From Litoditis marina (lineage: Eukaryota > Nematoda > Chromadorea > Rhabditida > Rhabditidae), in the NCBI GenBank assembly GCA_964036275.1, contig OZ038433.1, positions 51,725,902 to 51,789,901 of the forward strand: a stretch of DNA of 64,000 nt. The letters run 5' to 3'. The notes beneath the pieces are model-generated. The model did not search any database and had not been told where the DNA came from. It saw only the letters and a program-made list of their open reading frames with translations. Numbering within the stretch: position 1 is the first letter of the stretch; every line of letters begins with the position of its first letter. This document shows, in pieces, positions 548-42,100 of this stretch. Made by a program: the position numbers and the translations under genes.

Positions 548-3442
548 GAAAAGTAGGAGGTGGCGATGATCGCCATCTCCAGTAGGAGGTGGCGATGATC
601 GCCATCTCTCCAGTAGAAGGTGGCGATGATCGCCATCTCTCCAGTGGCGATGATCGCTATCTCCCCAGTAGGAGGTGGCGATGATCGCCATCTCCCCAGT
701 AAGAGGTGGCGATGATCGCCATCTTCCCAGTAGGAGGTGGCGATGATCGCCATCTCTCCAGTAGGAAGTGGCGATGATCGCTATCTCCCCAGTGGGAGGT
801 GGCGATGATCGCCATCTCTCCAGTAGGAAGTAGCGATGATCGCTATCTCTCCAGTAGGAGGTGGCGATGATAACCACCTCTCCAGTAGTAGATGGCGATG
901 ATCGCCATCTCTCCAGTAGGAGGTGGCGATGATCGCCATATCCCCAGTAGGAGGTGGCGATGATCGCCATCTCCCCAGTAGAAGGTGGCGATGATAGCCA
1001 TCTCTCCGGTAGGAGGTGGCGATGATCGCCATCTCCCCAGTAGGAGGTGGCGATGATCGCCATCTCTCCAGTAGAAGGTGGCGATGATCGCCATCTCTCC
1101 AGTAGGAGGTGGCGATGATCGCCATCTCCCCAGTAGGAGATGTCGATGATCGTCATCTCCCCAGTAGAAGGTGGCGATGATCACCATCTTCCCAGTAGAA
1201 GGTGGCGATGATCGCCATCTCTCCAGTAGGAGGTGGCGATGATCGCCATCTCTCCAGTAGAAGGTGGCGATGATCGCCATCTCTCCAGTAGGAGGTGGCG
1301 ATGATCGCCATCTCTCCAGTAGGAGATGGCGATGATCGCCACCTTCTACTGGAGAGATCCATTAGGAGGTGGCGATGATCGCCATCTCTCCAGTGGAAGG
1401 TGGCGATGATCGCCATCTCCCCAGTAGGAGATGTCGATGATCGTCATCTCCCCAGTAGAAGGTGGCGATGATCACCATCTTCCCAGTAGAAGGTGGCGAT
1501 GATCGCCATCTCTCCAGTAGGAGGTGGCGATGATCGCCATCTCTCCAGTAGAAGGTGGCGATGATCGCCATCTCTCCAGTAGGAGATGGCGATGATCGCC
1601 ACCTTCTACTGGAGAGATCCATTAGGAGGTGGCGATGATCGCCATCTCTCCAGTGGAAGGTGGCGATGATCGCCATCTCTCCAGTGGCGATGATCGCCAT
1701 CTTCCCAGTAGGAGGTGGCGATGATCGCCACCTCCCCAGTAGGAGGTGGCGATGATCGCCATCTCTCCAGTGGCGATGATCGCCATCTCCCCAGTAGGAG
1801 GTGGCGATGATCGCCACCTCCCCAGTAGAAGGTGGCGATGATCGCCATCTCTCCAGTGGCGATGATCGCCATCTCTCCAGTGGCGATGATCGTCATCTCC
1901 CCAGTAGGAGGTGGCGATGATCGCCATCTCCCCAGTAGAAGGTGGCGATGATCGCCATCTCTCCAGTGGCGATGATCGCCATCTCTCCAGTGGCGATGAT
2001 CGCCATCTTCCCAGTAGGAGGTGGCGATGATCGCCATCTCCCCAGTAGAAGGTGGCGATGATCGCCATCTCTCCAGTGGCGATGATCGTCATCTCCCCAG
2101 TAGGAGGTGGCGATGATCGCCATCTCTCCAGTGGCGATGATCGCCATCTCTCCAGTAGAAGGTGGCGATGATCGCCATCTCCCCAGTAGAAGGTGGCGAT
2201 GATCACCATCTCTCCAGTAGAAGGTGGCGATGATCGCCATCTCTCCAGTGGCGATGATCGCCATCTCCCCAGTAGGAGGTGGCGATGATCGCCACCTCCC
2301 CAGTAGAAGGTGGCGATGATCGCCATCTCTCCAGTGGCGATGATCGCCATCTCTCCAGTAGAAGGTGGCGATGATCGCCATCTCCCCAGTAGAAGGTGGC
2401 GATGATCGCCATCTCCCCAGTAGAAGGTGGCGATGATCACCATCTCTCCAGTAGGAGGTGGCGATGATCGCCATCTCCCCAGTAGGAGATGTCGATGATC
2501 GTCATCTCCCCAGTAGAAGGTGGCGATGATCACCATCTTCCCAGTAGAAGGTGGCGATGATCGCCATCTCTCCAGTAGGAGGTGGCGATGATCGCCATCT
2601 CTCCAGTAGAAGGTGGCGATGATCGCCATCTCTCCAGTAGGAGGTGGCGATGATCGCCATCTCTCCAGTAGGAGATGGCGATCATCGCCACCTTCTACTG
2701 GAGAGATCCATTAGGAGGTGGCGATGATCGCCATCTCTCCAGTGGAAGGTGACGATGATCGCCATCTCTCCAGTGGCGATGATCGCCATCTTCCCAGTAG
2801 GAGGTGGCGATGATCGCCACCTCCCCAGTAGGAGGTGGCGATGATCGCCATCTCTCCAGTAGGAGGTGGCGATGATCGCCATCTCCCCAGTAGAAGGTGG
2901 CGATGATCGCCATCTCTCCAGTGGCGATGATCGCCATCTCCCCAGTAGGAGGTGGCGATGATCGCCATCTCCCCAGTAGAAGGTGGCGATGATCGCCATC
3001 TCTCCAGTGGCGATGATCGCCATCTCCCCAGTAGGAGGTGGCGATGATCGCCATCTCTCCAGTAGGAGGTGGCGATGATCGCCATCTCCCCAGTAGGAGG
3101 TGGCGATGATCGCAATCTCTCCAGTAGGAGGTGGCGATGATCGCCATCTCCCCAGTAGGAGGTGGCGATGATCGCCATCTCTCCAGTAGAAGGTGGCGAT
3201 GATCGCCATCTCTCCAGTGGCGATGATCGCCATCTCCCCAGTAGGAGGTGGCGATGATCGCCATCTCTCCAGTAGGAGGTGGCGATAATCGCCATCTCTC
3301 CAGTAGGAGGTGGCGATGATCGCCATCTCTCCAGTAGGAGGTGGCAATGATCGCCATCTCTCCAGTAGGAGGTGGCGATGATCGTCATCTCTCCAGTAGG
3401 AGGTGGCAATGATCGCCATCTCCCCAGTAGGAGGTGGCGATG
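548..3442. repeat. 31-bp palindromic minisatellite (about 2.9 kb)
   Basis: Tandem units of about 31 bp built around GGCGATGATCGCC, an odd palindrome with 6-bp arms. The flanks (GGAGGT before, ATCTCC after) extend it to a nearly perfect 25-bp hairpin. Many units are a 24-bp variant that lacks 7 bp (AGGAGGT). Short inverted units interrupt the array near 1340-1370, 1585-1625 and 2675-2715, and longer blocks of units recur as higher-order copies. Because 31 is not a multiple of 3, three successive units cycle through all frames and the minus strand stays open for up to 335 codons in overlapping frames. These frames (MAIIAT, DGDHRH, RWRSSP blocks) are by-products of the repeat, not genes. Confidence 0.95.
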
Positions 3443-3445
3443 AAT

Positions 3446-3672
3446 TTACGCGCTCTAAGTTATAGAGAACTCTCGCGCTCCAAGTTGAAGAGAACTCACG
3501 CGCTCCAAGTTAAAGAGAACTTACGCACTCCAAGTTAAAAAGAACTCACGCGCTCCAAAATAAAGAGAACTTACGCACTCCAAGTTAAAAAGAACTTACG
3601 CGCTCCAAGTCTTAGAGAACTTACGCGCTCCAAGTTCCAGAGAAGTTACCCGCTCTAAGTTTTAGAGAACTT
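3446..3672. repeat. 25-bp tandem satellite, about 9 copies
   Basis: Units of 25 bp resembling CGCGCTCCAAGTTAAAGAGAA plus four bases, with point differences (CGCACTCC, AAGTCTTAG, AAGTTCCAG). The array sits exactly between the forward 31-bp minisatellite and its inverted block. It is unrelated in sequence to the 31-bp unit. Confidence 0.9.
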
Positions 3673-3684
3673 AGAACCTACTTG

Positions 3685-3915
3685 AGAGATGGCGATCATC
3701 GCCGCCTCCTACTGGAGAGATGGCGATCATCGCCATCTCCTACTGGAGAGATGGCGATCATCGCCATCTCCTACTGGAGAGATGGCGATCATCGCCACTG
3801 GGGAGATGGCGATCATCGCCACCTCCTACTGGGGAGATGGCGATCATCGCCACCTCCTACTGGGGAGATGGCGATCATCGCCACCTCCTACTGGGGAGAT
3901 GGCGATCATCCTCCT
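3685..3915. repeat. Inverted block of the 31-bp minisatellite
   Basis: About seven units of the same minisatellite in reverse orientation (CTACTGGAGAGATGGCGATC pattern). With the main array it forms a large interrupted inverted repeat around the 25-bp satellite. Confidence 0.92.
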
Positions 3916-4342: not shown

Positions 4343-6452
4343 CAACCGCTATGTTGTGAGTTTCCACGGTTTCCGTCGACTCTTCGGAAGCAGCCAAACT
4401 GTCCACATCACCAGAACTAAAATCGAGTGTTGTTTTTGTGCACTCCAATGTTTCATGTCACTTTTATAGGAATAGGTAAAACACTTTAATGATGTGTTGA
4501 CAGTGAAAAATTGATTTTGTGTAATTCTATTTAGTTGCTTGTGCGCGCTAAATTAAGTACTTATTGAACATAACTTCACGTTACACTTCAAGTGTAGCTG
4601 AAATACACACACACCCTCCGAACTAGAAGTATGTTAAATCTAGACAACACTTTTATCATTCCTCTGCTGTAGTTTCGAGAAACCGTATGCTAGAATATCC
4701 CAAAACACAGAGAAGTTTTCTAATCGTTTTTGCATACTAATCACTACATTAGATTTTCAAAAACTCTTTTGATAAGACACTATAACTCACTCATCGATTA
4801 ATCGTCCAGATCGGTTTTGGTGGACTCCTTTGCCTTTTTCTCCACCGTTCTTTCCAGATCCGCCGCCTAAAACAATGAATAAACATTAATTCAATTGTTA
4901 TGTATTTGTTAGTTGTTGGTGAGATTACGTTGAAACTGTGAAAAAAAACTGAGTTGATACCTGTAACCATAATTATAAATTCAGAGATCTTCATTGAACG
5001 GAACATGTGCGATATTCCACAACTCGTCTTTTTTCGACGCCTTTCTCGATGATAGTTCTATTGGCTACGTTCAGTATTCTGAGTTGTACTATCAAGTAAG
5101 GCTTTGTTAAAATAGAGTCGAAACCCTACTCGACTCGCCAATCAGAGTTTTGAGCAAAAACTCAATGCCTCAACTAAATTTAATGTTTGTACTGCGACCT
5201 TGTTTTCAAATCGACTGTTTTCCAATCGTTCATGTGTCTGTGCGTTTCATCAATAATATATAAGCAGACCAAAGTTTCTCAAAAATAACTAGCCTGTTCC
5301 CGTTCTACTGCTGTTTTCAGAGCTGGTTTCATCGGACAAGTCCTCTGTGGAATCGGTCGAATTTCCTCCGGCTGCCCCACTGTTGGAACCCTTCCCGTGT
5401 CCACCACTGTTTCCGGCTCCAGATTCCTTGCTGACCTGTCGGCTCTGAGAGCCGCCTGCACCGTCTTCATCGACTTCGGCTACGCCTCCTTTGCCTTTTC
5501 CTTTGCCATTTTCTGTCGATTTTTCGCTCTTTCCTTTGCCAACTTCTTTGGATTTCCTTCCTTTTCCTTTGCCGCCATTCCCATTTTGGGCTCCGCCTCC
5601 TCCCACTTTGTTTTCTTTCTCTCCGCTCTTCTTTCCGTCACCGCCGGCGGAATCTACTTCGGAACCACCGTCTCTCTCGCCGTCTCCGCTATCTTCTCCA
5701 CCGTTTCCTGACTATCCGTCGGATTTTCCGCCGGACTGATCCTTTCCACCATTTTTACCGGCTTCACCACTTTCTTTGCTTGCGTCTGCTCCGCTTCCTG
5801 TGTTTTCTCCGCTCTCCTTTCCTCCGTTCTTGCCTTCTCCCGAATCTTTTCCGGAGCTGTTTGGTTTCTTTCCGGCTCCGCTTCCCGCACCGGATGAGTT
5901 GTCTCCTTCCTCAGAGCCTTTGCCGCCAGAGGTTTGCTCTCCTTCAGATGAAGCTCCGCCCTCTTTGTTAGAAGATTTTCCTTTTACTTCAAAAGAGCCG
6001 CTCTTTTGTTTTGAAGCTCCGCCCTCTTTACCCGAAGCTCCGCCCTTCTCTCTCGGAGATCCGCCTTTTTCTTTGGAAGCTCCGCCCTTCTCTCCCGAAG
6101 CTCCGCTCTTTCCTTTCAAAGCTCCGCCCATTTCTTTCGAAGCTCCGCTCTCTTCATTTGAAGCTCCGCCCTCTTTGTTGGAAGCTCAGCCTCCTTCAGA
6201 TGTTGAAACTCCGCCTCCTTCAGATGAAGCTCCGCCCTTCTCGGTTTAGGTTGGCGAGATTGTGAATCACCGTCCACCTCACTGAAAAGAAGAACAATTT
6301 TGCTATGTTGACCATCGAAGGTCAGTATCTTCACAACCATCTTAAATCACATAAAAAGCAGAAATAGAAAGAGAAAGACAAAAGAGAGAGAGAAAGAGAG
6401 GGAGAGAGAGATAGACAGAGTAAGAGAGAATGTTAGACTAGAAGTGTGGTGC
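4343..6452 (-). pseudogene. Broken partial duplicate of the quahog-like gene linker exons
   Basis: This is a close copy of positions about 37266-39342 of the qua-1-like gene, introns included. It covers three consecutive exons: a Gly/Ser/Lys-rich exon (about 5289-6281), a small exon (4791-4866, 3 bp longer than its parent) and a third (4347-4416). Splice acceptors are kept. The large exon is broken twice: an indel near 6236-6245 shifts the frame just after the SRQPKP segment, and a TAG at 5712-5714 interrupts the GGKSDG region. The copy carries no signal peptide, Cys-rich or Hint exon. Homology ends at about 6452, where the adjacent transposon begins. It is non-functional as a quahog protein; transcription cannot be judged from sequence. 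Confidence 0.88.
6361..6432. repeat. GA-rich microsatellite
   Basis: Impure AGAGAGAGAAAG tract. The parental locus has the matching tract at 39225-39300, so it was part of the duplicated segment. Confidence 0.85.
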
Positions 6453-13756: not shown

Positions 13757-16700
13757 ATGTGGACCGACATTTTTGACCGTTGGACTGTATTATTATCTCT
13801 GGTGATTCTATTTGTATCTTTTGTGTGCGTCATGCTGGTTTCGTCCAAAAAAGCCATGTTTCGAGATTCGTATTTCATACTGTTCTACTTCGTAGGTAAG
13901 TTTCATCATTAAAAAACCATTATCCAGATGTTTCACCTAATACCAAGTCATTGTACTGTTTGCAGCTTGTCTAGATGTTCTGAGTTCAATGAACGTGGTG
14001 CTATTTCGTCTAACAGAAAATTCTGAACTGGGTAGGTTCACCCCCATTCATCCCTCATAAACAATAAGAAAGCGACATTGTCCCTGTATATTAACGAGTG
14101 CGAATTAACATATTCTATACTAACTGTGTTCTGATAGACTTTACCAAACCTGATTGAAAATGAGAGAATTTCGCAAATTATTTGTCTGAGCAAATAAAAC
14201 GAAAACGAGAAATGTTTGTTCGATGAATACTCACTACTTTCAAATGTGCAGTACTGCAAAAGTGCACATTATGTATTGAGCGCGTAACAGAGTAAACTAA
14301 ACACTACATTTCATTTTTATCTTCCATGTCTCCATTTTCCGGTAATTGGAGTGCCACATATATCAATGTGAAAACACGTGATCGCGAATAAACATCATGC
14401 GCAGCGCGGAGCGCTGCGCAGATTATTTTTTGTTCTCAACTATGCAGACGTTAGTAGTGTATGTACCCCCCCTGTCCAAAGTCCCCCAGTTGTCCAATTT
14501 CTCAGAGTCGCCCTTAGAACCCAAAATGTCCCCCAGCTAGCCATTGGCCCCTGGCTAGTCATGCCCCCAATCGGATCACGTCCCCCGGCTAGCCATAATC
14601 ACTTTCGAAAATATTGCGAAATTTTTTCTCAAATTTTTTTCTTTTTCCAAGAACACAGACAAACATTTCATTTTACAAAAATCTAATTTTAATACAAATT
14701 TGATCCTATATCTCGATGGCGAAGACGTTCTCTTTCCCCAATCGGATCATCTCCTCAGGCACTACCTAAAAGGCTCATGTCCCCAATCGGATCACCCAAC
14801 AGTCCCCCAATCGGATCAGGTCTCCCAGATTACTCATTCCCCCAATCGGATCACTTTCGAAACTAATCTCGAAATTTATTACGAAATTTTTTCCTCAATT
14901 TTTTTTTCGAAAATTTCATAGTTCTCGTGTTACCTCAAACTTGGGTAATTGAACCGAGAAATGTACACATACGTATCTAGTACAGGTTGACAGTATCAGG
15001 CATCTAATAGTTTCGTAATCCGTTTACAGGTAAGTTTTTCTCACGTTATGTCCCCAGAATGTTCAGGCCTGAAATGTTTCCTAGCCCGCCGCGATATCAC
15101 CCAGATTGAGCCCTCGAAAGCCCCCCGGATTAGTCACCCAGGATGGTCCCCGAATAGGGGAAGTAACCAGTGTGTTCCCCAGAAAGAAAATTCGAAAGTT
15201 CAAAAGTCAAGTCACTTAGTCAAGTATATTTAAGAGGCAATCAACAATAGCGAAGAGAATGAGATAATGCAAACAGATAAAATACGGAAATACGCATGGA
15301 AGAGAAGATGGAATAAATCCATCATATAGGGATCAAAGAATTGGGTTCGTTGTTCAGTACTCCTTTCACATTAATATTGTTTTAGGTTTTCCGAAGTCGG
15401 GTTTTTCGTAAAAAACTCTAGAAACTCGGCCACCTCTGGCAATAATTTATCGTAGGTGTTTACATTCTTCTTTACATTCTTACATACACAATTTTCTCTA
15501 AATCCATCCAACATTCTGAAGCTTCACATGTGTTTTCGAAGCCATCACAATCGAAATCAATAAGACCGTTGTCAAAGCTCATATTTAACGGAACTAAGTT
15601 TGACTCCTTTTACTGGCTGCTCTTCTGTCTGCAAAATGAATTGAAATCATAATCCGTTACTGTGGCTGACCTTAATGTATGATTTTGTCACTCAACTTTT
15701 CTCCACTTCCGCTTCGGTCTTCACCAACTAAGTGTGCCTTTTTTTATAAGAACAACAGTCTATGTTTGCATGTGAGTCAAAAATTGGCATCCTTATTTTT
15801 CCCCTTCCAATCTTCGAGTATTCGTAAGACAGCTTCGGGACAAGAGAGACAAATTTCCGGCATGCCACTGCGGTCATTCAAAACGTGTTCGCTAGTGAAT
15901 ATCATAGTGTGTTTTGTTCAACAGTAGACACGAAATCACAAATTTGGTAGTTCTAATTTTCGAAATGTTGCAAAGAGGGCGGGACCTTGGACTGGGTTGA
16001 TGAATGCTCATTCCATTTACGAAAATACCATGAGGGTTCGAAGGGTGCGTGGCCAAGACCTGTGATTGGTCATATCTTCACTTCCGAAATGAACAGCTCA
16101 TAAATACGCAAAGAGTCATTTAACACATCTTCATCACCAAGTTATGGCGTCTTTCTTCGAGTCGGAGTTGAGAATTGAGTCGCTTCTCTACGCTGTTACT
16201 ATGAAAATTTATCATGCTCATCTACGTGTCGAGACTCAACCATCTAAAATAGAGTGAATCCGTGAAAGGATTGATCGTTCCAAGTCAGATGGATATTTGC
16301 AGCGTTTCAGTTCAGAAGATCTCGGTGCATGTGGTATTTCTTAGTCGCGAGAACGCTATGGCCTGGACGCTCCCAAGTCAATTGCGCAAAGGCTTCGTTA
16401 TCACCATTTCCAATACTATGTTCAACTGTACCAACGCTTTCCAGCTGCTAAGAAGTATTCACTAACATGGGAATACAACACCAAAGCTTCCCAAAACTGG
16501 CTATCGCCTGTTTCAACAATAAATTCGGTGTATCTACGTTCAGAACGGGGACTTTTGTCAAGAAAACGTGTCGAGGACGTCTCAAACGGTAAGTCAGCTA
16601 GCAACGTCATAAATGCTCAAAAGTTTGCCATCACTGTCGTCGCAAGGAATGCACTGGAACTTGTATTCTCTCCGAACTGCCACGAGACTTTCCACATACA

Positions 16701-19700
16701 AGGGTGATACTGAAGAGTTGTTATGTCTTTAATAAATATTTTACCTCTATTCTGTTTTTGATACATATACAGAACTACGACTACACTTGATGAAACTAAT
16801 ATCTCGCGCAAAAATAATACCACATTCAATCATAGTTAGTGAAAACTTAGTGAAAACTCCTGTCGTTCTATTTTCATGAGCGCACGTCAATAACCATTGC
16901 ACCGTTCGAGTCATCGAGCACCATAGCACGATATTTATCAATTTAATAATCACGAAAGACAGTAACTATGAGCTTTTATCAATTCAGAAACAGTATCTCT
17001 ACATCACGAAAAAAACACAAGCTTATATAAATTTAATACCAACACTAAACCATTCGGGAATGGAGAGGTCACGCCAAGTGCCCTCGTAGAGTACGTTTCC
17101 ACATTATTTCGCCATGTGAGTCAGAACCATGAAGAGAGGTCGGCTAACTTAATTTTTCGATTCAGCCTTCTCGACTAAGTTTTAGGCATGAGAGTGTACC
17201 TGACTATAAACGTAAATAAGCAGACGTGACGCCCAGGTTTCATTATCTCTGCACATTCTTAATAACAGTTCACCTTGGGCGAAATGCCACAAAATTATTC
17301 CGTTGTACGCGTATCGATCACACAGTTTTGCAAAACATTCTTGGGAAGTTCCAACAGACACTGATTGTTGCGCCTGCAAGCTCGTGAAAGCGAGGTGTAT
17401 CAGCCAAAGAGCCACGGAAACGTCGTGAATGCATGTCTGTGTAGTGTCTATACTCGTTGCCAATAGTTTTTGGGTTTCAGTCATAGTTCATTATACAGGA
17501 ATCACCTAATTTTGCAATGTTAGAAATGTCTTTACATCTCACACCGTGATTTCAAATGTAATTTACCTCGAGATCAGTGGCCTATGTACTTAAAAGTACC
17601 GAAACTGTCGTCAAATCCAATGATGCCGTGAAGACTTGTGGTTTACATGTGTCTCAGGTATAAAATGTGCTAGACTCCTTTTTATATTGAAAATCTCCGT
17701 TCAAAAAGCCAAAGTTTGCCATTGTGTCGCAGAAAGTACGCCTTTTCCATGAATATGTCTTGTTTTTATCTTTAGTACCGCCACTCTATAGAATCTCAGT
17801 CAAGAGGGTTTACCTGAAAAGAGTGTAAAATGCCGAGAAAGGCATAGAAGTAGGCTTCAGCCAAGGACATCACACAGATAATTTAAATTCAAAATGAGAA
17901 TATCAAAAATGTGAACAAGTCCAGAAGGGGGTCAATGGAACAACACGCTAAATTCAATCATTATAAATTCAATATAGAAGAGCTCTACACCGAAGAACAG
18001 CAAAAGACCTTGAAGTCAGTTATGAACCAACTGTGATACAACTCAGTTTATTGTGAATTACCTTATAGATTTATTGAATATGTATTGTGATTCATTACAT
18101 ATTTTTGGCGAAAGCATCGAAATTGGCCCTAGATCTCTAAATATTGCATGCCTATCAGGAATCTCTATGACCCTTTAGTCTCTCCATACTCTCCTGATTC
18201 TCGTTTTGCAAAAAATCTCTAACTATCCAGTAATATCTTCACGAAATGGTATGGAAACCCCCACTATGATTGATTTTCGCATATGTACGAAACGTAATGA
18301 AGATATATTGATTTTAAAAAGATATATTGATTTTAACACTATAACTCAATAGTTTTCATATAAAATACGCAATACTTACAAACGCACTACTTCAATTTAC
18401 AACATATAAACTTTCGGAAACGGAGCGGTCACAACAAGTGATCCCGTAGTGCCCATTTTCCATTCATCCGCTCTTGCTTTTACTGCGACAAACTATCAAA
18501 CACAGAGTTTTATTACACAAATAACAAGCCATATCTAGAATATTCATTTGGAATATTATACCTAAGTTACAAATTTGGTATCAAAATTAGCTTTTTTCTC
18601 GGATGAAGTAGCAACGACTTAAGTTTTTTCTCTTTTCACAGGAAAACCATCCTGTACAGTTGCATTCAATTCTTCTTTCCGCGATGAAGTAGCAACCGTG
18701 GGATTTCCTCCCTCTTTCTGGGTCTTCGAAATAAGAGTGTTTACATGATTATTGGAATCAGCATGTATACGTTTGAGATAAGAAGGATGGTTCTTAAAGC
18801 GAGTAATAAAGTCTTTGGGAGAGAGATTCAACGAAGGGACTTCTATTCCGGAATGGTGTGCGTGTATGTGAGATAGTCTTCTCTGTTTGGATGAGAAAAA
18901 CTTGTCACATAGGGTACAATTATGTAGGACAGAGAGAATGCATAACCGACCGCTCAAAACAGATTAATATATTTAAACGAACAAACAGCTTTGACAAGTT
19001 GTATTGATGTATTATTCCAACTGCGTTCGATTCCATTACATGAACGCATCAAAGGTAATCACGGAAGCATTCAAAACTGTATAATCTCGTATCAAAACCG
19101 TTTCAATGCATGCCAAAAGACTCAAAATACAATTTCCGAAACCTAAAATGCATTTTCCTAGAGCTATCGACTATTTTCCACGTGTCAGTAAACACTTTTA
19201 CAGCCCAGAAATTTACTATAATTATCTCGCTCCTATATTGGTCATTGCAATGTGTGAGGTAAAAATTCTCTTCCACATTACCAACGGAAGAGTGCCTAGA
19301 TTTTTCTCTGTACGCACACTTTCAAATGTAAAATTTTGGAAATAAAATGACTTTGACAGATGTATAGATTAGTCTATATACACAAAAACTGCACATCTCC
19401 ACTCTGATCTTTCTAATAATAGTACGAATAGCACATTTCTTAATGAATATCGTGCCAATGTATGCCCTAAAAGTGAAAATTCACTTCCCAATAGTAAGAA
19501 TGCACTTTGTCGAAGCTATTGAGCACTTTCTCAAAGCTATCGAGCACTTTCAGAAGGTAATAATACACTCTCACATCCCAAAAAATAATTATAATTCGTT
19601 TCTTTCGCCCCATATATGGGTACTTTTGATGTGTAATTCCATGGAGTAGTTCTCAAAAAAGTGATATTATCCTTTTGTACACCATGAATTCGCTATAATT

Positions 19701-22700
19701 CGTTCTTTAGGCTCTCATATAAGGACAAATTTGTATGTGTAAGGTAAGGCCATCAAATATGCTTGAAAAGTAATAATACACAGTCGTAGACTGAAAATTC
19801 CCTATAATCCATTTTTTTTGCACCATGTATGACCATTTTCAATGTATAAGGTATTCATTTTCCGAAAGTATCAAAAAAAACCTTCAACTTTTCTATATTC
19901 TTTCAAACCGTGTGGAAAAAAACCAGAAAGCATATTCTAGAAACAAGAGTATGTATTAGGAAAACTACTAGGCTCCCCACAATCCTCAGATGAGTTGCAG
20001 AAATGTCTTAAAATGTACCTTTTTCTATGAACGCTCAGTAGATACCATGAATCTAGTATCCTACATCGGAAACCCTCTGAGAGTTACTTGGGACACCGAT
20101 ATATCTATCCACTAGAGAAAGCGTGCTGGAGAACTTTCTATAATTTCATCCTCAAAACTTATGGTAAGAGCGTTTCGTTTTTAAGGGACACAGCAGAGAA
20201 AACATGGTGATACATGTGCTTGAAAGTATGATTCGATGACATTCCTTGAGAGTGTCTTAAACTACTTTGAAAACTCAAAACATAGGAAAATTACAACTTT
20301 CTTATTTGCAAACCAGTTGATAACTCGCATAGAAGACATGAGAAAATTCAAATGCATAAGAACAATTCCTTACTTCATAAATACAAACGTTACTTCCATC
20401 ACCAAATTACCGGAGTGGAGAGGTCACAACAGGTGATCTCGTAATGTAAGGTTCTTCTTCTTATTGACAGAGATGTATGTTTCTCCGGTATGGTTTTAAA
20501 GAATGGAGCTAAGAATTCGGACTTTTTCCATCGGTATTCAAGAACGAGCATCTCGTAGATACTTCAGAGATACCCCAGTATTAATCGACTATTTAGGTTC
20601 ATATGTTTTCAAGCACTAGAAAGTCAGTCACATTTCCGTAGATTTGAAAATTCCGCTATTCTATAATAGATTGTAGTCTTCCAGGTGTAAAAATCCTCTA
20701 CGACACACGTTCAAGTCGTTTTTCTGTATAAAATTTTCTCTCTAAAGTATCATACAGTTAGTCTTTCGCCAAAGAAATCCTGAAATCGATCAATCAACGA
20801 AGAGAAGAACTGAACTTATCTTGATTCTCTGTAGAACATTCTATCTCAAAATATTATTATTCAGTTGATCGTGTATCAAAAAAGTATGAAATTAATGAGT
20901 GGGAAGATGAATGACACTTCATAGCCATTAGTGGTATACCTACCTCCACAAATTTCAAGGAAGTCCATGAAAATTTAATACAAATACAAGAAAAATGCAC
21001 TTTCCGTAAGTGAAAATGTACAAATTACTGATATTTACTAGGAATCCACCATAATACTCACTTTTCACACCTAATTAATGGAAATCACTCCCGAAAGTTT
21101 AGATATTTCACATAAGTATTTCGCTCCCTCTGTACTGATTCGTATTCAAGTTTTAAATCTACCTGTCTGGTCTACCCCTTTTCTGTTTGTCTGTTTTGAG
21201 ACTTGTATGCATTGAAAAGAAACGTACACTCGAGGGCACTAGGCGTGACCTCTCCGTTTCCGAATGGGTTGGTGTTGAAAGTAGGGAGTGTTATTGATGC
21301 TTAATACATTTTGAAATGTATTTCACCTTTTTCTGTCTTCTATTTCCTCTTTTTTATCTTTTTGTCTTTTATTCACTTCGTATTCTCCTTGGATTTCCTG
21401 TCTGGAATCTTTTTAAATCAGAAATTACAGTTTCGATATATTTTCTCTTTTCTGAAGTATTGCGAAAGAGTTATAGTGAATTTCGAGCAAAATACGAAGT
21501 GAATAAAAGACAAAAAGATAAAAAAGAGGAAATAGAAGACAGAAAAAGGTGAAATACATTTCAAAATGTATTAAGCATCAATAACACTCCCTACTTTCAA
21601 CACCAACCCATTCGGAAACGGAGAGGTCACGCCTAGTGCCCTCGAGTGTACGTTTCTTTTCAATGCATACAAGTCTCAAAACAGACAAACAGAAAAGGGG
21701 TAGACCAGACAGGTAGATTTAAAACTTGAATACGAATCAGTACAGAGGGAGCGAAATACTTATGTGAAATATCTAAACTTTCGGGAGTGATTTCCATTAA
21801 TTAGGTGTGAAAAGTGAGTATTATGGTGGATTCCTAGTAAATATCAGTAATTTGTACATTTTCACTTACGGAAAGTGCATTTTTCTTGTATTTGTATTAA
21901 ATTTTCATGGACTTCCTTGAAATTTGTGGAGGTAGGTATACCACTAATGGCTATGAAGTGTCATTCATCTTCCCACTCATTAATTTCATACTTTTTTGAT
22001 ACACGATCAACTGAATAATAATATTTTGAGATAGAATGTTCTACAGAGAATCAAGATAAGTTCAGTTCTTCTCTTCGTTGATTGATCGATTTCAGGATTT
22101 CTTTGGCGAAAGACTAACTGTATGATACTTTAGAGAGAAAATTTTATACAGAAAAACGACTTGAACGTGTGTCGTAGAGGATTTTTACACCTGGAAGACT
22201 ACAATCTATTATAGAATAGCGGAATTTTCAAATCTACGGAAATGTGACTGACTTTCTAGTGCTTGAAAACATATGAACCTAAATAGTCGATTAATACTGG
22301 GGTATCTCTGAAGTATCTACGAGATGCTCGTTCTTGAATACCGATGGAAAAAGTCCGAATTCTTAGCTCCATTCTTTAAAACCATACCGGAGAAACATAC
22401 ATCTCTGTCAATAAGAAGAAGAACCTTACATTACGAGATCACCTGTTGTGACCTCTCCACTCCGGTAATTTGGTGATGGAAGTAACGTTTGTATTTATGA
22501 AGTAAGGAATTGTTCTTATGCATTTGAATTTTCTCATGTCTTCTATGCGAGTTATCAACTGGTTTGCAAATAAGAAAGTTGTAATTTTCCTATGTTTTGA
22601 GTTTTCAAAGTAGTTTAAGACACTCTCAAGGAATGTCATCGAATCATACTTTCAAGCACATGTATCACCATGTTTTCTCTGCTGTGTCCCTTAAAAACGA

Positions 22701-25700
22701 AACGCTCTTACCATAAGTTTTGAGGATGAAATTATAGAAAGTTCTCCAGCACGCTTTCTCTAGTGGATAGATATATCGGTGTCCCAAGTAACTCTCAGAG
22801 GGTTTCCGATGTAGGATACTAGATTCATGGTATCTACTGAGCGTTCATAGAAAAAGGTACATTTTAAGACATTTCTGCAACTCATCTGAGGATTGTGGGG
22901 AGCCTAGTAGTTTTCCTAATACATACTCTTGTTTCTAGAATATGCTTTCTGGTTTTTTTCCACACGGTTTGAAAGAATATAGAAAAGTTGAAGGTTTTTT
23001 TTGATACTTTCGGAAAATGAATACCTTATACATTGAAAATGGTCATACATGGTGCAAAAAAAATGGATTATAGGGAATTTTCAGTCTACGACTGTGTATT
23101 ATTACTTTTCAAGCATATTTGATGGCCTTACCTTACACATACAAATTTGTCCTTATATGAGAGCCTAAAGAACGAATTATAGCGAATTCATGGTGTACAA
23201 AAGGATAATATCACTTTTTTGAGAACTACTCCATGGAATTACACATCAAAAGTACCCATATATGGGGCGAAAGAAACGAATTATAATTATTTTTTGGGAT
23301 GTGAGAGTGTATTATTACCTTCTGAAAGTGCTCGATAGCTTTGAGAAAGTGCTCAATAGCTTCGACAAAGTGCATTCTTACTATTGGGAAGTGAATTTTC
23401 ACTTTTAGGGCATACATTGGCACGATATTCATTAAGAAATGTGCTATTCGTACTATTATTAGAAAGATCAGAGTGGAGATGTGCAGTTTTTGTGTATATA
23501 GACTAATCTATACATCTGTCAAAGTCATTTTATTTCCAAAATTTTACATTTGAAAGTGTGCGTACAGAGAAAAATCTAGGCACTCTTCCGTTGGTAATGT
23601 GGAAGAGAATTTTTACCTCACACATTGCAATGACCAATATAGGAGCGAGATAATTATAGTAAATTTCTGGGCTGTAAAAGTGTTTACTGACACGTGGAAA
23701 ATAGTCGATAGCTCTAGGAAAATGCATTTTAGGTTTCGGAAATTGTATTTTGAGTCTTTTGGCATGCATTGAAACGGTTTTGATACGAGATTATACAGTT
23801 TTGAATGCTTCCGTGATTACCTTTGATGCGTTCATGTAATGGAATCGAACGCAGTTGGAATAATACATCAATACAACTTGTCAAAGCTGTTTGTTCGTTT
23901 AAATATATTAATCTGTTTTGAGCGGTCGGTTATGCATTCTCTCTGTCCTACATAATTGTACCCTATGTGACAAGTTTTTCTCATCCAAACAGAGAAGACT
24001 ATCTCACATACACGCACACCATTCCGGAATAGAAGTCCCTTCGTTGAATCTCTCTCCCAAAGACTTTATTACTCGCTTTAAGAACCATCCTTCTTATCTC
24101 AAACGTATACATGCTGATTCCAATAATCATGTAAACACTCTTATTTCGAAGACCCAGAAAGAGGGAGGAAATCCCACGGTTGCTACTTCATCGCGGAAAG
24201 AAGAATTGAATGCAACTGTACAGGATGGTTTTCCTGTGAAAAGAGAAAAAACTTAAGTCGTTGCTACTTCATCCGAGAAAAAAGCTAATTTTGATACCAA
24301 ATTTGTAACTTAGGTATAATATTCCAAATGAATATTCTAGATATGGCTTGTTATTTGTGTAATAAAACTCTGTGTTTGATAGTTTGTCGCAGTAAAAGCA
24401 AGAGCGGATGAATGGAAAATGGGCACTACGGGATCACTTGTTGTGACCGCTCCGTTTCCGAAAGTTTATATGTTGTAAATTGAAGTAGTGCGTTTGTAAG
24501 TATTGCGTATTTTATATGAAAACTATTGAGTTATAGTGTTAAAATCAATATATCTTTTTAAAATCAATATATCTTCATTACGTTTCGTACATATGCGAAA
24601 ATCAATCATAGTGGGGGTTTCCATACCATTTCGTGAAGATATTACTGGATAGTTAGAGATTTTTTGCAAAACGAGAATCAGGAGAGTATGGAGAGACTAA
24701 AGGGTCATAGAGATTCCTGATAGGCATGCAATATTTAGAGATCTAGGGCCAATTTCGATGCTTTCGCCAAAAATATGTAATGAATCACAATACATATTCA
24801 ATAAATCTATAAGGTAATTCACAATAAACTGAGTTGTATCACAGTTGGTTCATAACTGACTTCAAGGTCTTTTGCTGTTCTTCGGTGTAGAGCTCTTCTA
24901 TATTGAATTTATAATGATTGAATTTAGCGTGTTGTTCCATTGACCCCCTTCTGGACTTGTTCACATTTTTGATATTCTCATTTTGAATTTAAATTATCTG
25001 TGTGATGTCCTTGGCTGAAGCCTACTTCTATGCCTTTCTCGGCATTTTACACTCTTTTCAGGTAAACCCTCTTGACTGAGATTCTATAGAGTGGCGGTAG
25101 ATAAAGATAAAAACAAGACATAGTCATGGAAAAGGCGTACTTTCTGCGACACAATGGCAAACTTTGGCTTTTTGAACGGAGATTTTTAATATAAAGGAGT
25201 CTAGCACATTTTGTATCTGCTACACATGTAAACCACAAGTCTTCACGGCATCATTGGATTCGACGACAGTTTCGGTACTTTTAAGTACATAAGCCACTGA
25301 TCTCGAGGTAAATTACATTTGAAATCACGGGTGAGATGTAAAGACATTTCTAACATTGCAATAATTAGGTGATTCCTGTATAATGAACTATGACTGAAAC
25401 CCAAAAACTATTGGCAACGAGTATAGACACTACACAGACATGCATTCACGACGTTTCCGTGGCTCTTTGGCTGATACACCTCGCTTTCACGAGCTTGCAG
25501 GCGCAACAATCAGTGTCTGTTGGAACTTCCCAAGAATGTTTTGCAAAACTGTGTGATCGATACGCGTACAACGGAATAATTTTGTGGCATTTCGCCCAAG
25601 GTGAACTGTTATTAAGAATGTGCAGAGATAATGAAACCTGGGCGTCACGTCTGCTTATTTACGTTTATAGTCAGGTACACTCTCATGCCTAAAACTTAGT

Positions 25701-28700
25701 CGAGAAGGCTGAATCGAAAAATTAAGTTAGCCGACCTCTCTTCATGGTTCTGACTCACATGGCGAAATAATGTGGAAACGTACTCTACGAGGGCACTTGG
25801 CGTGACCTCTCCATTCCCGAATGGTTTAGTGTTGGTATTAAATTTATATAAGCTTGTGTTTTTTTCGTGATGTAGAGATACTGTTTCTGAATTGATAAAA
25901 GCTCATAGTTACTGTCTTTCGTGATTATTAAATTGATAAATATCGTGCTATGGTGCTCGATGACTCGAACGGTGCAATGGTTATTGACGTGCGCTCATGA
26001 AAATAGAACGACAGGAGTTTTCACTAAGTTTTCACTAACTATGATTGAATGTGGTATTATTTTTGCGCGAGATATTAGTTTCATCAAGTGTAGTCGTAGT
26101 TCTGTATATGTATCAAAAACAGAATAGAGGTAAAATATTTATTAAAGACATAACAACTCTTCAGTATCACCCTTGTATGTGGAAAGTCTCGTGGCAGTTC
26201 GGAGAGAATACAAGTTCCAGTGCATTCCTTGCGACGACAGTGATGGCAAACTTTTGAGCATTTATGACGTTGCTAGCTGACTTACCGTTTGAGACGTCCT
26301 CGACACGTTTTCTTGACAAAAGTCCCCGTTCTGAACGTAGATACACCGAATTTATTGTTGAAACAGGCGATAGCCAGTTTTGGGAAGCTTTGGTGTTGTA
26401 TTCCCATGTTAGTGAATACTTCTTAGCAGCTGGAAAGCGTTGGTACAGTTGAACATAGTATTGGAAATGGTGATAACGAAGCCTTTGCGCAATTGACTTG
26501 GGAGCGTCCAGGCCATAGCGTTCTCGCGACTAAGAAATACCACATGCACCGAGATCTTCTGAACTGAAACGCTGCAAATATCCATCTGACTTGGAACGAT
26601 CAATCCTTTCACGGATTCACTCTATTTTAGATGGTTGAGTCTCGACACGTAGATGAGCATGATAAATTTTCATAGTAACAGCGTAGAGAAGCGACTCAAT
26701 TCTCAACTCCGACTCGAAGAAAGACGCCATAACTTGGTGATGAAGATGTGTTAAATGACTCTTTGCGTATTTATGAGCTGTTCATTTCGGAAGTGAAGAT
26801 ATGACCAATCACAGGTCTTGGCCACGCACCCTTCGAACCCTCATGGTATTTTCGTAAATGGAATGAGCATTCATCAACCCAGTCCAAGGTCCCGCCCTCT
26901 TTGCAACATTTCGAAAATTAGAACTACCAAATTTGTGATTTCGTGTCTACTGTTGAACAAAACACACTATGATATTCACTAGCGAACACGTTTTGAATGA
27001 CCGCAGTGGCATGCCGGAAATTTGTCTCTCTTGTCCCGAAGCTGTCTTACGAATACTCGAAGATTGGAAGGGGAAAAATAAGGATGCCAATTTTTGACTC
27101 ACATGCAAACATAGACTGTTGTTCTTATAAAAAAAGGCACACTTAGTTGGTGAAGACCGAAGCGGAAGTGGAGAAAAGTTGAGTGACAAAATCATACATT
27201 AAGGTCAGCCACAGTAACGGATTATGATTTCAATTCATTTTGCAGACAGAAGAGCAGCCAGTAAAAGGAGTCAAACTTAGTTCCGTTAAATATGAGCTTT
27301 GACAACGGTCTTATTGATTTCGATTGTGATGGCTTCGAAAACACATGTGAAGCTTCAGAATGTTGGATGGATTTAGAGAAAATTGTGTATGTAAGAATGT
27401 AAAGAAGAATGTAAACACCTACGATAAATTATTGCCAGAGGTGGCCGAGTTTCTAGAGTTTTTTACGAAAAACCCGACTTCGGAAAACCTAAAACAATAT
27501 TAATGTGAAAGGAGTACTGAACAACGAACCCAATTCTTTGATCCCTATATGATGGATTTATTCCATCTTCTCTTCCATGCGTATTTCCGTATTTTATCTG
27601 TTTGCATTATCTCATTCTCTTCGCTATTGTTGATTGCCTCTTAAATATACTTGACTAAGTGACTTGACTTTTGAACTTTCGAATTTTCTTTCTGGGGAAC
27701 ACACTGGTTACTTCCCCTATTCGGGGACCATCCTGGGTGACTAATCCGGGGGGCTTTCGAGGGCTCAATCTGGGTGATATCGCGGCGGGCTAGGAAACAT
27801 TTCAGGCCTGAACATTCTGGGGACATAACGTGAGAAAAACTTACCTGTAAACGGATTACGAAACTATTAGATGCCTGATACTGTCAACCTGTACTAGATA
27901 CGTATGTGTACATTTCTCGGTTCAATTACCCAAGTTTGAGGTAACACGAGAACTATGAAATTTTCGAAAAAAAAATTGAGGAAAAAATTTCGTAATAAAT
28001 TTCGAGATTAGTTTCGAAAGTGATCCGATTGGGGGAATGAGTAATCTGGGAGACCTGATCCGATTGGGGGACTGTTGGGTGATCCGATTGGGGACATGAG
28101 CCTTTTAGGTAGTGCCTGAGGAGATGATCCGATTGGGGAAAGAGAACGTCTTCGCCATCGAGATATAGGATCAAATTTGTATTAAAATTAGATTTTTGTA
28201 AAATGAAATGTTTGTCTGTGTTCTTGGAAAAAGAAAAAAATTTGAGAAAAAATTTCGCAATATTTTCGAAAGTGATTATGGCTAGCCGGGGGACGTGATC
28301 CGATTGGGGGCATGACTAGCCAGGGGCCAATGGCTAGCTGGGGGACATTTTGGGTTCTAAGGGCGACTCTGAGAAATTGGACAACTGGGGGACTTTGGAC
28401 AGGGGGGGTACATACACTACTGACGTTTTGAAAAGTTGTTTTGCCCGTTTCTTCGTTATTTGTGAACCATTTTCCGAGAAACTTGCCGTGAGCAATTAAA
28501 GGGCATACATCTACAAGATTTGTGAATTTGAGTTCAAAATGACTCAGTTGTGAGTTGGGAGGGTAAACGTCTCGCAAAAACAACTTCCGTAACGGGGCGG
28601 CGGAGGCGGCGGCGGCTACAAAAAAATGTCCGCCCTTCTTTCGAGGCACAGCTTCGCTCTCAATGAAAATCTACTAACACGGTTCACACTGTTGTGAAGC

Positions 28701-36150: not shown

Positions 36151-39100
36151 CTTGAAAAAAGGGTCTTATGAAAACAGAACAGAAGAAATCACTTGAATGT
36201 TTGTATCAAAACATTACTTATATAATTTCTCGATTTCATTTCTGCCAAACTTGAACATGAGATTTCACAAAACGAAACACGTCCAAAACTACATTTGAAC
36301 AATAACAAACTTGAAAAAGCCCAACTTCCTCCTTTGTTAATGTAAACTTTTAAGGTTGGCCTTCATTCAAGTCGAACACAAACTGAAAATGGTACCAACA
36401 CTCCATAACTCTAGTGTGGGCATACACATGTTGGTTAATGCTCCTCCATGTTTCACGAAGAGGCTTTGTTGCTTAGCCTAATGTCCTACCCTGATGAATA
36501 GCCTATACATTTTCGAATGAAGACATCCAACAGTCAAATGCAGTCTATAACCTATACATACAATATAATATTGAAATTCACTATTATGAGTTTGAATAAT
36601 ATACAACTCACGTGCGGGAGCGTGTAGAAGTCGATGGGTGCCTATCTCAGGAATATCGTCGTCATCGCTTGCTCCGCTATTATCAGTGAATTGTCTTGCA
36701 AATTGATTTTCCTCTTCTCCGTTTGAGCTAGAAACGTTTTATTCTCGAATGTATTACCATTTGTCTCCACGAATCACGTGATTTGCTTTCTGTATCAGCC
36801 CATACCCATACGGTGTGTTTGCAGCTCGATCTCGTTGCTATTCGGCCGAATTCCACAAAATATGAAGTGTATCAGGACATAACTACAATAAATATTTGTT
36901 CGCTTCTTTTAGTATCAATTCATGTACATTTTAGTGCTGGTACACAGTTAGTTTCAGTTCTCAATTTGCAGCGGTTCTGACTAGAAATCGCACAAGTCAA
37001 ACCAGCAAAACTCAATATTAGTAGAAAAAGAACTCACTCCTGACCAGAATCGTCTCCTCCTGACTCCTTGTTCTGCAAATTTGGGTTTAAATGAAACATT
37101 GAAGTAATAATAGTGATGGTAAATCGTTCTTCGGAGTATTGTTCAGCCTAGATGCGTTGAAGCATGTAAAACTATCACTGCTTGCTCGGTTTCTATTTTT
37201 TTAAGAAACTCAAAAGTTTCACAAATTGTTCTGATTCTATAATGACTTAGTTTATGATATCTAAACTAACCGCTATGTTGTGAGTTTCCACGGTTTCCGT
37301 CGACTCTTCGGAAGCTGCCAAACTGCCCACATCACCAGAACTGGAATCGAGTGTTATTTTTGTGCACTCCAATATTTCATGTCAGTTTTAAAGCAATAGA
37401 AAGAAGGCACGTTAATGGTGTGTTGACATAGTGAAAAGTTGATCTCGTGTGATTCTATTTAGTTGCTTTTCACAAATTCGCTCTAAATTTCGTACTTATT
37501 GAACGTAATTTCAAGTTACACTTCAAGTTTAGCTGAAATACCACCCATCCTCCGAACTAGAAGTATGTTTGAAACAAGACAAAACTTTTATCAACCCTCT
37601 GCTGTAGTTTCGAGAAGTGGTATGCTAGATTATCCCAAAGCACAGATAAGTTTTTCAGTCATTCTTGCATTTGCATTATAATCACTACTTTCCCTGTTCA
37701 GAAAGGTTATAGAACATTTGAGCGGACACTATAACTCACTCATCGATTAATCGTCCAGATCGGTTTTGGTTGACTCCTTTGCCTACTCCACCGTTCTTTC
37801 CAGATCCGCCGCCTAGAACAATGAATAAACACTAAATTAAGTTGATGATAAGATTCAGAGATCTTCATTGAACGGAACATGTGCGATATTCCACAACTAG
37901 TCTTTTTTTCGGCGCTTCTCTTAATACTATATTTATTTGCTACGTTCAGCTTTCAGAGTTGTACTATCAAGTAAGGCTTTGTTGAAATAGAGTCGAAACC
38001 CTACTCGACTCGCCAATCAGAGTTTTGAGCAAAAACTCACTGCCTCAACTTAATTTAATGTTTGTACTGCGACCTTGTTTTCAAATCGACTGGTTTCCAA
38101 TCGTTCATGCGTCAGTGCGTTTCATCAATAATATATAAGCAGACCAAAGTTTCTCAAAAATAACTAGCCTGTTCCCGTTCTACTGCTGTTTTCAGAGCTG
38201 GTTTCATCGGACAAGTCCTCTCCGGAATCGGCCGAATTTCCTCCGGTTGCCCCACTGTTGGAACCCTTTCCGTGTCCACCACCGTTTCCGGCTCCAGATT
38301 CCTTGCTGACCTGTCGGCTCTGAGAGCCACCTGCACCGTCTCCATCAACTTTGGCTCCGCCTCCTTTGCCTTTTCCTTTGCCATTTTCTTTCGATTTTTC
38401 GCCCTTTCCTTTGCCAACTTCTTTGGATTTTCTTCCTTTTCCTTTGCCGCCATTCCCACTTTTGGCTCCGCCTCCTCCCACTTTGTTCCCTTTCTCTCCG
38501 CTCTTCTTTCCGTCACCGCCGGCGGAATCTACTCCAGAACCCCCGTCACTCTCGCCGTCTCCGCTATCTTCTCCACCGTTTCCTGACTTTCCGTCGGATT
38601 TTCCGCCGGACTGATCCTTTCCACCATTTTTACCGGCTTCACCACTTTCTTTGCTTGCATCTGCTCCGCTTCCTGTGTTTTCTCCGCTCTTCTTTCCTCC
38701 GTTCTTTCCTTCTCCCGAATCTTTTCCGGAGCTGTTTGGTTTCTTTCCGGCTCCGTTTCCTGCACCGGATGAGTTGTCTCCTTCCTCAGAGCCTTTGCCG
38801 CCAGATTTCGAGGTTTCCTCTCCTTCAGATGAAGCTCCGCCCACTTCGTTAGAAGATTTTCCTTTTCCTTCAGAAGAGCCGCTCTTTTGTTTTGAAGCTT
38901 CGCCATTTTCTTTGGAAGCTCCGCTCTTTTGTCCCGAAGCGCCGCTATTTTCGCCTGATGCTCCGCCTCCTTCAGATGAGGAAGCTCCACCCTTCTCTCC
39001 CGAAGCTCCGCCTTTTTCATTCGAAGCTCCGCCCTCTTCGTTGGAAGCTCCGCCTTCTTCAGATGTGGAAGCTCCGCCTCCTTCAGATGAAGCTCCGCCT

Positions 39101-42100
39101 TTTTTGTCTGGTTTAGGTTGGCGAGATTGTGAATCACCGTCCACTTCACTGAAAAGGAGAACAAATGTTGTTATGTTGACTACCAAAGCTCTTTACAGCC
39201 ATCTTAAACCACATAAAAACAGAAATAGAGAGAGAAAGACAAAAGAGAGAGAGAGAGAGCATAGAGAGAGAGAGAAAGAGAGAAAGAGTGAGAGAGAAGG
39301 TCTTCAATGTGACTGTGGAAGTTAGACTAAAAGTGTGGTGAGAACCGTGAAAATGGTTTTTCCATTGGAAACACTCAATTCATGAATAGAGTTAAATCAT
39401 TGGATAACCATGTGGTCTCTTACCAAATTCAATTTAATAAGTACTAAACATTCAAATGATTATCGTTGTAGTTTCATACCTTACAGAAATGACAAAATGA
39501 ATGCAAGTTAAGTTTCGCACAATAGTTCATATTTGGTTCATAAAAGTCATATTTGGACGAGATTACTTCATTGGAAATCAACAGTGAAAGAAAGGACACT
39601 CACCTCTCCTTAGAATCACTGCTATGAGAGCCATTCGAGTCGCCTGTAAACGAGCAAATACTCATGCACCCAAATGTAGCTGATATTGTATATAGGAAGC
39701 TTTATGTAGTTTTACCGATATTCTTCTGGCATGATAGTACCAAATGAAAGATATTCCTCAAAAGATAACGTGGTTATTTTCGAATGAGTGTACATCTAAT
39801 CAATAGTTTCGATTGATTCTTTTGAACTTATTTTATTCATCTCTAAAATAGATCAATATTACGTGTTCATACACAACAACGCGCAGGAAATCAAAAACTA
39901 TAAATATAATAGATGCATAACTAACCATTTCCCTTTCCACCCTTATTCTTGCCGCTCTTCTTGTCTCCCAGCAGATCTGAGTCAGTTTCCTGAAACATTC
40001 GACTGATTTAAAATACCCTCGACTTCATTGTCAACGTTTCTTGACCACATTTCCGGTCAATTGAAGGGCAACTGTATGTCTCAAACATATTCGAGGAAAT
40101 ATTCTTGCAAATACAATCTAGTGACGTTTTGCAATAAAAATCCCTCGGAATATGAGATCTGAACTGGGAAAAAGTAAATTTACGTTTTTTTACCACGATA
40201 AAATGGGTGAATATCGTTAATTTAACTTTCTCCAAGCTAGCACTTCAATTTGATAGGACTCACCTCGCCTGCGCCCTCTCCATCTATGGCTGTTTTTGGC
40301 TGATCTTTTCCGCCACTCCCACTGTCTGCACCCTCTCCTTCTCCAGAACTATTTCCATCTTTTCCACCGTGTCCTGCTCCTAGAAGAACAGATAATGACT
40401 TTATTTCAGTTTTCAACTTTGTTAATGCTGAAAGAGCAATCTCTATAACCTATCTAAAAATTGAGATGGAAACGCAAAAGAATTTCATCTTTGAATGCTG
40501 TAATATTTCGATAGTAGATCGCAAAACTATCTCATTTATGGATATTTCTATCAACACAATGGTTTGAATGAGTTAAGAAACACACATAACATTCTCTAAC
40601 GTTCATCACTAATGTGGTGGAATGTTTCAAGATCTCTATATTGTTTGAGGGAGACTATCAGGGATTTCTGACCGTTATTTCCGTTGTTTCCTCCATTTCC
40701 GTGGTTGTGTACATGGCTTTCCGAGTGGGCGTTCGCCTGAAATTCAAATCGAAATTTGTGTGTCAAAATACCAGCTTTTCTCTCATCATTGTGAAAAAAC
40801 TGCATTTCAGCTGATTCTTGATTTCTTCGTATTCAGTGTGCGTCTGAGTTCCACATTCCGAGTGAATATTTCCACAGGAAATTCTTATTTTTTGACAGTG
40901 AAGTTTAATCAGCGGAATAGTTTTCATCTTTCCTATCAAAACTCAACTTTTCTTTTTCACATCGTGTAATCACAAACAAACAAACTCTGCAGCTTTCACC
41001 GTATATTAACATATCGGCTGCAACATTTGATTGCGTATACTCATAGTAAGACTCTCTCCCATTCTGTTTTCCAAATCATGTCTACATTGCTCAGAGAATA
41101 CAGAGGAATAGTGTGGTCTCAAAATTGTTTTGATAACCCAGTATCTCGAGTGAGACACATCAAACGTATGTTAGAAGATCCCGGCACCTTCATCCCATCC
41201 TGCGTCTCTCGCTCTGCCTTACTATTTCGCGCCACTCGTATGTAAGAGCAGAGAGACAGCGTTTGATTGAGGAGACGCAGGATGGGATGATGGTGCCGGG
41301 ATCTTCTAGCATACGTAGCCAACTTATGTAGAGTCTATCAAGGCAGAGGGCAATTTGCGGTTCAACAAACACTGTTTGAAGTTTTTGCTACGGTAAGTAA
41401 TTATAAGTAAAATACGGTGTATGTCGAGTTTTATCGATGTGTTAGTAGTCTAACCGCGTTGATTTTCGGCGAAAACTGGTGAAATAAATACCCGAGGTCC
41501 AAACTACAAAGAAGATTTGGCCATTGCCAAATATGTTGTTTGTCTTGCATGTGAAAAACATTTTGTGTGTTTCGATCTATTTTATGAATTGGATAATTAC
41601 TAACGGTGGCACTGGGTGCATCTCCCTTTCCGTCTGTATGGATGGTGATGTTGATGTTGCCGGGCTGCTCGCCGTTTACCTGTAAACAACGGACAACATT
41701 TACAAAACGGATGTAATATAAGAGTTTGTTTGCTATCGAACAAGTGACTTTTCCCACGGGTAGATGTCGTACTCTGGTTATTAAAAGTGCACTAAATGCT
41801 AAGGCAACACATGAACACCAAGGTCTTATCTCCTTTTTCATTTCGTGTTTTTGTGTTTCTCTAACGAGAAAGTGCCACACTTTTGAGTGTATGTGAACGA
41901 ATAAGTAATATCTGCTTCTATCATCATGGTCTAGTCATTGAGCAACTGATCTGCGTTTTCACATTTGTTATAGCATTTCGATTAACTACAATGCCAAAAT
42001 ACTCATTTAGTAAACGGTCACTTTCAGAGTACGTATGCTAGAACCTTCATCTCACCCTGCGTCTCCTCAAACACACGCTATTTTTCTGCTCTTACATCCC

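Follow-up and report, generated by a model that had tools for sequence, protein, structure and literature searches.

We analyzed a stretch of 64,000 nucleotides from the nematode Litoditis marina (C4:51725902-51789901; hereafter, the window) and found in it an almost wholly palindromic mobile element of 13,969 bp (14453-28421), in which two 6.9-kb inverted arms enclose a 106-bp spacer. Comparison with the genome (261.8 Mb in 522 contigs; all counts from genome searches are lower bounds) supports the view that the element is a non-autonomous Maverick/Polinton derivative, whose PolB-side end is joined to its own inverted copy and whose PolB core is missing. The best explanation, which we consider probable, is that this is a palindromic Maverick/Polinton formed by fold-back copying in protein-primed replication and mobilized in trans.

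Structure of the element and its kinship with Mavericks

The first-pass annotation had described a 14-kb palindrome with GACGTT on both sides. Both duplications were read, and the arms and the 106-bp spacer were aligned, which bore out this description. The features of the element are given below in window coordinates, with the basis in brackets; C106 and C76 are contigs with a related Maverick and another copy of the palindrome, respectively.

14447..14452, no strand: left target-site duplication, GACGTT (sequence)
14453..21384, + strand: left arm, 6,932 bp, starting AGTAGTGTATGTA (sequence, arm alignment)
14453..14724, + strand: terminal 272 bp, 97.4% identity to one C106 end (sequence comparison)
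16002..16702, + strand: stretch with a broken relic of the open reading frame (ORF) that immediately precedes the PolB domain; its mirror image lies in the right arm (sequence comparison)
17511..17775 (left) and 25100-25362 (right), + strand: 265-bp tract with all 14 differences between the arms (base-by-base alignment)
17988..18105, + strand: relic of the PolB region of Mavericks, matching its 3′ end (sequence comparison)
18619..18963, − strand: ORF without a Pfam match, containing a relic of the zinc-finger-like tail that adjoins the protease gene (sequence comparison)
18982..21384, + strand: inner 2.4 kb of the arm (only short matches to the Maverick stretches read)
21385..21490, no strand: central spacer, 106 bp (alignment; homologue in the C76 copy)
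21491..28421, − strand: right arm, 6,931 bp, inverted copy of the left arm (sequence, arm alignment)
28422..28427, no strand: right target-site duplication, GACGTT (sequence)

The element begins with AGTAGTGTATGTA at the left and ends with the inverse of AGTAGTGTATGTA at the right. By BLAST, the arms were 99.78% identical over 6,939 columns, with a few bases of the duplication counted in. The base-by-base alignment gave 14 differing columns (9 substitutions and 5 gap columns), and outside the 265-bp tract the arms were identical over ~6.67 kb each. The spacer is asymmetric and recurs in other copies of the family; its homologue in the copy at C1:16.11 Mb has 74% identity and lies in the other orientation. 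A meaning for this flip was considered and rejected, because the element is symmetric. The motif GGAGAGGTCAC occurs in the left arm at 17062 (+), 20417 (+) and 21245 (−), thus in both orientations, and recurs in many family copies and related loci; it is possibly promoter-like or origin-like.

Mavericks have been reported to move genes between nematode species (PMC10680173). We found sequence collinear with the window arm in two places, the left part of C106 and the PolB end of the C16:21.82 Mb Maverick. Against the Maverick at C16:21.82 Mb, the matches follow in the order of the end, a stretch preceding the upstream ORF, this ORF itself, the PolB 3′ end, intergenic DNA, and the zinc-finger-like tail adjoining the protease gene. 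The PolB core of this Maverick had no match in the window arm, and a few short repeats matched out of order or inverted. Judged from its position and strand, the upstream ORF is probably the N-terminal part of PolB. Its relic in the window has stops in all three forward frames, and the C76 arm matches the upstream ORF with 90% identity over 626 bp. The four arm ORFs submitted to Pfam had no match. The element therefore carries the ends of the autonomous family and remnants in the same order, as is required of a non-autonomous Maverick derivative.

Full-length but not necessarily intact relatives with PolB, integrase and this type of end, which the first-pass annotation had suggested looking for, are present in the genome. 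The Maverick at C16:21.81-21.83 Mb is 14,756 bp long, with PolB matches, an integrase, and GTCAAC at both sides, and that at C18:2.17-2.20 Mb has PolB, an integrase, and GCCATG at both sides. C106 carries PolB (PF03175), an integrase with a chromodomain and, at both ends, a relative of the PolB-upstream ORF. Two further matches on C106 fell below their Pfam cut-offs, an ATPase-like ORF and, by a narrow margin, an adenovirus-type protease. The best named relatives of the C106 integrase ORF are in Caenorhabditis species, the nearest with 50% identity. C106 was considered as the parent of the window element and rejected, because it has no matching target duplication. In C182, an end 98% like the first 190 bp of the window element lies 2.4 kb from an integrase ORF.

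The palindrome family and other Maverick palindromes

The terminal 201 bp of the window element had 44 matches in the genome, including its own two, and the exact 13-base end occurred 92 times, whereas its reversed pattern was found 21 times. A search with part of the inner arm (19600-21300), in which the best 40 of 110 candidates were scored, matched only loci of the palindrome family. At least 19 loci were counted by hand from the matches; 17 are inverted pairs and two are single arms (C446 and C2:24.50 Mb). Identity to the window inner arm ranged from about 71% to 99%. The unmatched centre is ~260-516 bp in 12 of the 17 inverted pairs and several kb to ~11 kb in C311, C397, C17 and C4:15.34 Mb; at C2:24.32 Mb it is ~320 bp, and the match of one arm stops short. 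The pairs in C325 and C311 are cut by contig ends inside the second arm. Two further loci came from a tract of the outer arm, namely a short member of 7.1 kb at C3:22.39 Mb and, at C16:22.62-22.63 Mb, an inverted pair of this tract (87%), a candidate member known from that pair only and included in the interval counts below. The locus that starts at C2:22976702 has a family arm and, after it, a long array of ~433-bp satellite units, some of them inverted.

A 6-bp target duplication was found in all 12 members whose two ends were read and intact; inverted pairs that were not read at both ends lie outside this tally. The duplications are as follows (positions in Mb).

Window: GACGTT
C17: GATAAT
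C397: AACCAC
C18: CTCGTT
C4:18.16: GTTACA
C16:38.5: AGGGTA
C16:27.1: CAAATT
C4:12.47: GACCAC
C2:3.86: CATGAT
C76: GACAAG
C4:15.34: TTTGGG
C3:22.39: GTTATT

The ends are of Maverick type, that is, inverted repeats starting AGTAGTG as on elements bearing PolB and integrase (e.g., C16:21.81 Mb). Further copies with such ends and 6-bp duplications had been a suggested check, and they are thus present. Because 12 members pair matching duplications with such ends, a chance origin of the duplication is ruled out.

In the intervals tested, the family shows relics only of a protein-primed PolB gene and no retrovirus-like integrase gene. None of 17 family intervals overlapped any of 111 listed PolB matches (best 91 of 123 candidates scored), and none of 19 overlapped any of 101 listed integrase matches (E up to 1e-10; best 111 of 199 candidates scored). 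The intervals of C325 and C311, which stop at contig ends, entered the integrase test only, and the single arms C446 and C2:24.50 Mb lie outside both tests. For C1:16.11, C376, C2:24.32 and C16:22.63 Mb the interval is the matched core only; C3:22.39 and C16:22.63 Mb are known from the outer tract only.

Palindromes were also found outside this family. The one at C1:3481507-3494507 is 13.0 kb long, with PolB matches in each arm, ACTGTT at both sides, almost no spacer, and arms that differ at ~1 position per stretch read; no integrase lies inside it among the listed matches. It belongs to a separate PolB-bearing lineage, and its ends and arms differ from those of the window family. Its arm has 97% identity to a stretch at C16:24.63 Mb, which is unpaired among the matches listed and has an integrase match 2.2 kb beyond it, and a palindromic relative of the arm lies at C3:21.33-21.34 Mb. 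At C16:18.59-18.61 Mb, an integrase is present in both arms and TACGTG at both sides; these arms are 99.3-99.8% alike over the 4.5 kb read per end, and the middle is asymmetric where read (801 bp). The same inverted pair of integrase matches occurs, by match positions only, at C2:16.31-16.33 and C16:3.00-3.02 Mb. One genome end is thus duplicated in inverted form, namely the PolB end in the window family and at C1:3.48 Mb, and the integrase end at C16:18.6 Mb. This points to at least three separate end duplications, from both Maverick ends.

Another inverted pair with PolB matches in both arms lies at C4:52930004-52939491. Each of its arms holds an inverted repeat, and its middle contains retrotransposon-like ORFs.

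Arm symmetry and origin of the palindromes

The arms were at least 99% alike in five of the six copies read on both sides, C397 being the exception, compared with about 71-99% between copies. The C17 arms, aligned over about 7.0 kb in two overlapping stretches, differ at 6 columns, those of C311 at 13 columns in 2.4 kb, and those of C4:15.34 Mb at 54 columns in 6.7 kb; the C325 arms are identical over 1.0 kb. In trees of three arm regions, the two arms were strict sisters in three regions for the window and C17, in two for C4:15.34 Mb, and in one for C325. Pairs that were not read through, C2:3.86 Mb excepted, had arms with equal or nearly equal bit scores (e.g., C76, 1688/1688; C1:16.11 Mb, 715/715; C18, 2593/2589), and micro-repeats specific to C76 near its centre are mirrored in both of its arms. 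From these comparisons, the symmetry looks remade copy by copy.

The trees of different arm regions visibly disagree when compared by eye, which suggests exchange between copies. We tested whether the 265-bp tract is a patch from another copy, and none of the copies proved to be an exact donor. The left version is nearest to C4:12.47 Mb (98%), and the right version scores best with C325 (94%), followed by C4:12.47 Mb (95%). The inner arm is strongly conserved between the window and C76. Selection was rejected as its cause, because the more distant copy at C1:16.11 Mb lacks such conservation, and recent exchange would be the simpler reading.

Adenovirus and linear plasmids show what protein-primed replication can produce: a displaced single strand whose ends are complementary can form a panhandle, and a strand that folds back and is copied to its end yields an exact palindrome. 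For Polintons, two papers attribute a terminal-protein-like domain to PolB and regard the enzyme as protein-primed (PMC11071308, PMC6431247); such replication of Mavericks has been deduced largely from PolB (PMC11071308). Under the explanation we prefer, a displaced or broken strand would fold back near the centre and be copied to a new end during strand-displacement replication; alternatively, the two arms of a displaced strand would anneal and be corrected, so that the arms are equalized. The product would then be replicated and integrated by the PolB and integrase of full-length Mavericks, and would behave as their defective-interfering-like satellite. The mechanism is inferred, and so is mobilization in trans, the latter from the ends and duplications shared with full-length Mavericks. 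Fold-back would account for the near-identical arms, for formation from either end, and for end exchange. Such a fold-back or panhandle account was not found in the parts of the literature examined.

Several observations weigh against this explanation. No replication intermediate, transcript or new insertion was observed, and no source was identified for the inner 2.4 kb of the arm. One PolB match at C16:21.81 Mb and the integrase at C18:2.17 Mb each contain a stop; therefore, neither shows an intact helper. C106, with the best-matching 272-bp end, has flanks without a matching 6-bp duplication and is therefore possibly recombinant. In C4:34.75 Mb, the 13th copy with both ends read, ~22 bases are missing from the right terminus, and a longer copy of the left flank stands there; the ends of C2:3.86 Mb and of C16:27.1 Mb are unlike. 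The C311 arms, 99.8% alike in one region, are yet not strict sisters: they lie in a tight cluster with the left arms of C446 and C397, to which the C311 left arm is equally near or nearer. The arms of C397 itself are heterologous; they share about 86% identity in the outer part and fall into different groups in the one tree region that includes both. Repeats or inserts occur in one arm only in C17 and C4:15.34 Mb, and the two inner arms of C2:3.86 Mb are 99% and 95% identical to the window (bit scores 2963 and 2681). Moreover, chromosomal gene conversion could be another route to equal arms.

This route leads to the strongest rival, in which the palindrome arose once by ordinary rearrangement and conversion after insertion has kept the arms alike, as in Y-chromosome palindromes. 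The window arms, identical save for one tract that could be another copy's patch, would fit it, and the disagreement of the region trees makes exchange between copies likely. However, C397 retains ~86% outer arms beside an intact duplication (AACCAC), C2:3.86 Mb retains unlike ends, and the palindromes derived from the PolB-bearing lineage and from the integrase end indicate that such structures formed repeatedly, so that we regard this rival as unlikely. It is more doubtful still that the palindromes were kept because long-hairpin transcripts feed small-RNA silencing of Mavericks, a proposal that is compatible with fold-back copying. A transcript that spans the centre could form a duplex of 6.9 kb and the genome holds many copies, but these behave as mobile elements with their own insertions.

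An assembly artefact, from fold-back reads or a mis-joined haplotype, is very improbable: although the related contigs C325 and C311 stop inside the second arm, palindromes read at both ends have two different flanks and a matching 6-bp duplication, the window arms differ in one tract, and the asymmetric spacer recurs in other copies. Equally little credit is given to a foldback or MITE-like (miniature inverted-repeat transposable element) element of another superfamily with chance Maverick fragments. Foldback/Galileo transposons are mostly inverted repeat, and the long inverted arms without coding capacity recall them, but they belong to another superfamily, and the window arms hold Maverick relics in Maverick order, with the ends and 6-bp duplication of full-length Mavericks of the same genome. 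Of the two classes the first-pass annotation had suggested, the non-autonomous Maverick derivative was accordingly retained and the foldback class dropped. Its remark that viral-type genes were not seen holds for intact genes only, as both the PolB region and the protease-gene tail have left relics.

The element shares with Mavericks/Polintons (polintoviruses) the AGTAGTG type of end, a target duplication of 6 bp, and, in collinear order, relics of the PolB region and protease tail. It differs in having no PolB or integrase match, an inverted second PolB end replacing the integrase/capsid half. No palindromic Maverick appeared in our literature search, which covered titles and the starts of abstracts, with many journals and Repbase outside it. 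SYREC (symmetric recombinant) and similar defective genomes of adenovirus, a protein-primed linear replicon, carry one end twice as a giant palindrome. The window family shares this form, whereas its palindromes are integrated and form a diversified family. Palindromic deletion derivatives of the yeast pGKL linear plasmids likewise arise from one end of a protein-primed linear DNA and differ in being extrachromosomal. The same literature search returned no relevant paper on SYREC and none on pGKL palindromic derivatives, and the part of an adenovirus packaging review that was available does not mention duplication or symmetry (PMC5033970).

Of the 11 members that lack a large insert and whose ends are both placed, ten are 12.7-15.9 kb long and one is 7.1 kb; four elements with PolB and integrase matches are 14.8, 14.8, 18.2 and 23.8 kb. 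A packaging limit is possible, and these sizes only suggest it. With evenly divided confidence, we propose that Mavericks recurrently yield palindromic half-genomes from either end, and that one lineage has become a long-lived, self-symmetrizing satellite family, replicating and perhaps packaged at the expense of full-length Mavericks. Palindromes from either end with re-equalized-looking arms are the sort of by-product that protein-primed replication could leave, and their chromosomal copies can be dated and compared. If the proposal is true, they would be defective-interfering genomes that are integrated and inherited and so preserve a record of fold-back in protein-primed replication, and such satellites would bear on how hosts coexist with virus-like elements.

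Other features of the window

A large 31-bp minisatellite of about 96 copies occupies 552-3910; past an array of 25-bp repeats, a shorter stretch of the same unit follows, oppositely oriented. Two similar repeat-rich stretches ~33 kb apart (5435-6246 and 38310-39322) share GAAGCTCCGCC-type repeats and similar ORFs. A reverse transcriptase domain (PF00078) at 59940-60818 (− strand) probably belongs to a LINE-like (long interspersed nuclear element) element, and a 130-bp satellite array of about 14 copies lies at 61503-63371.

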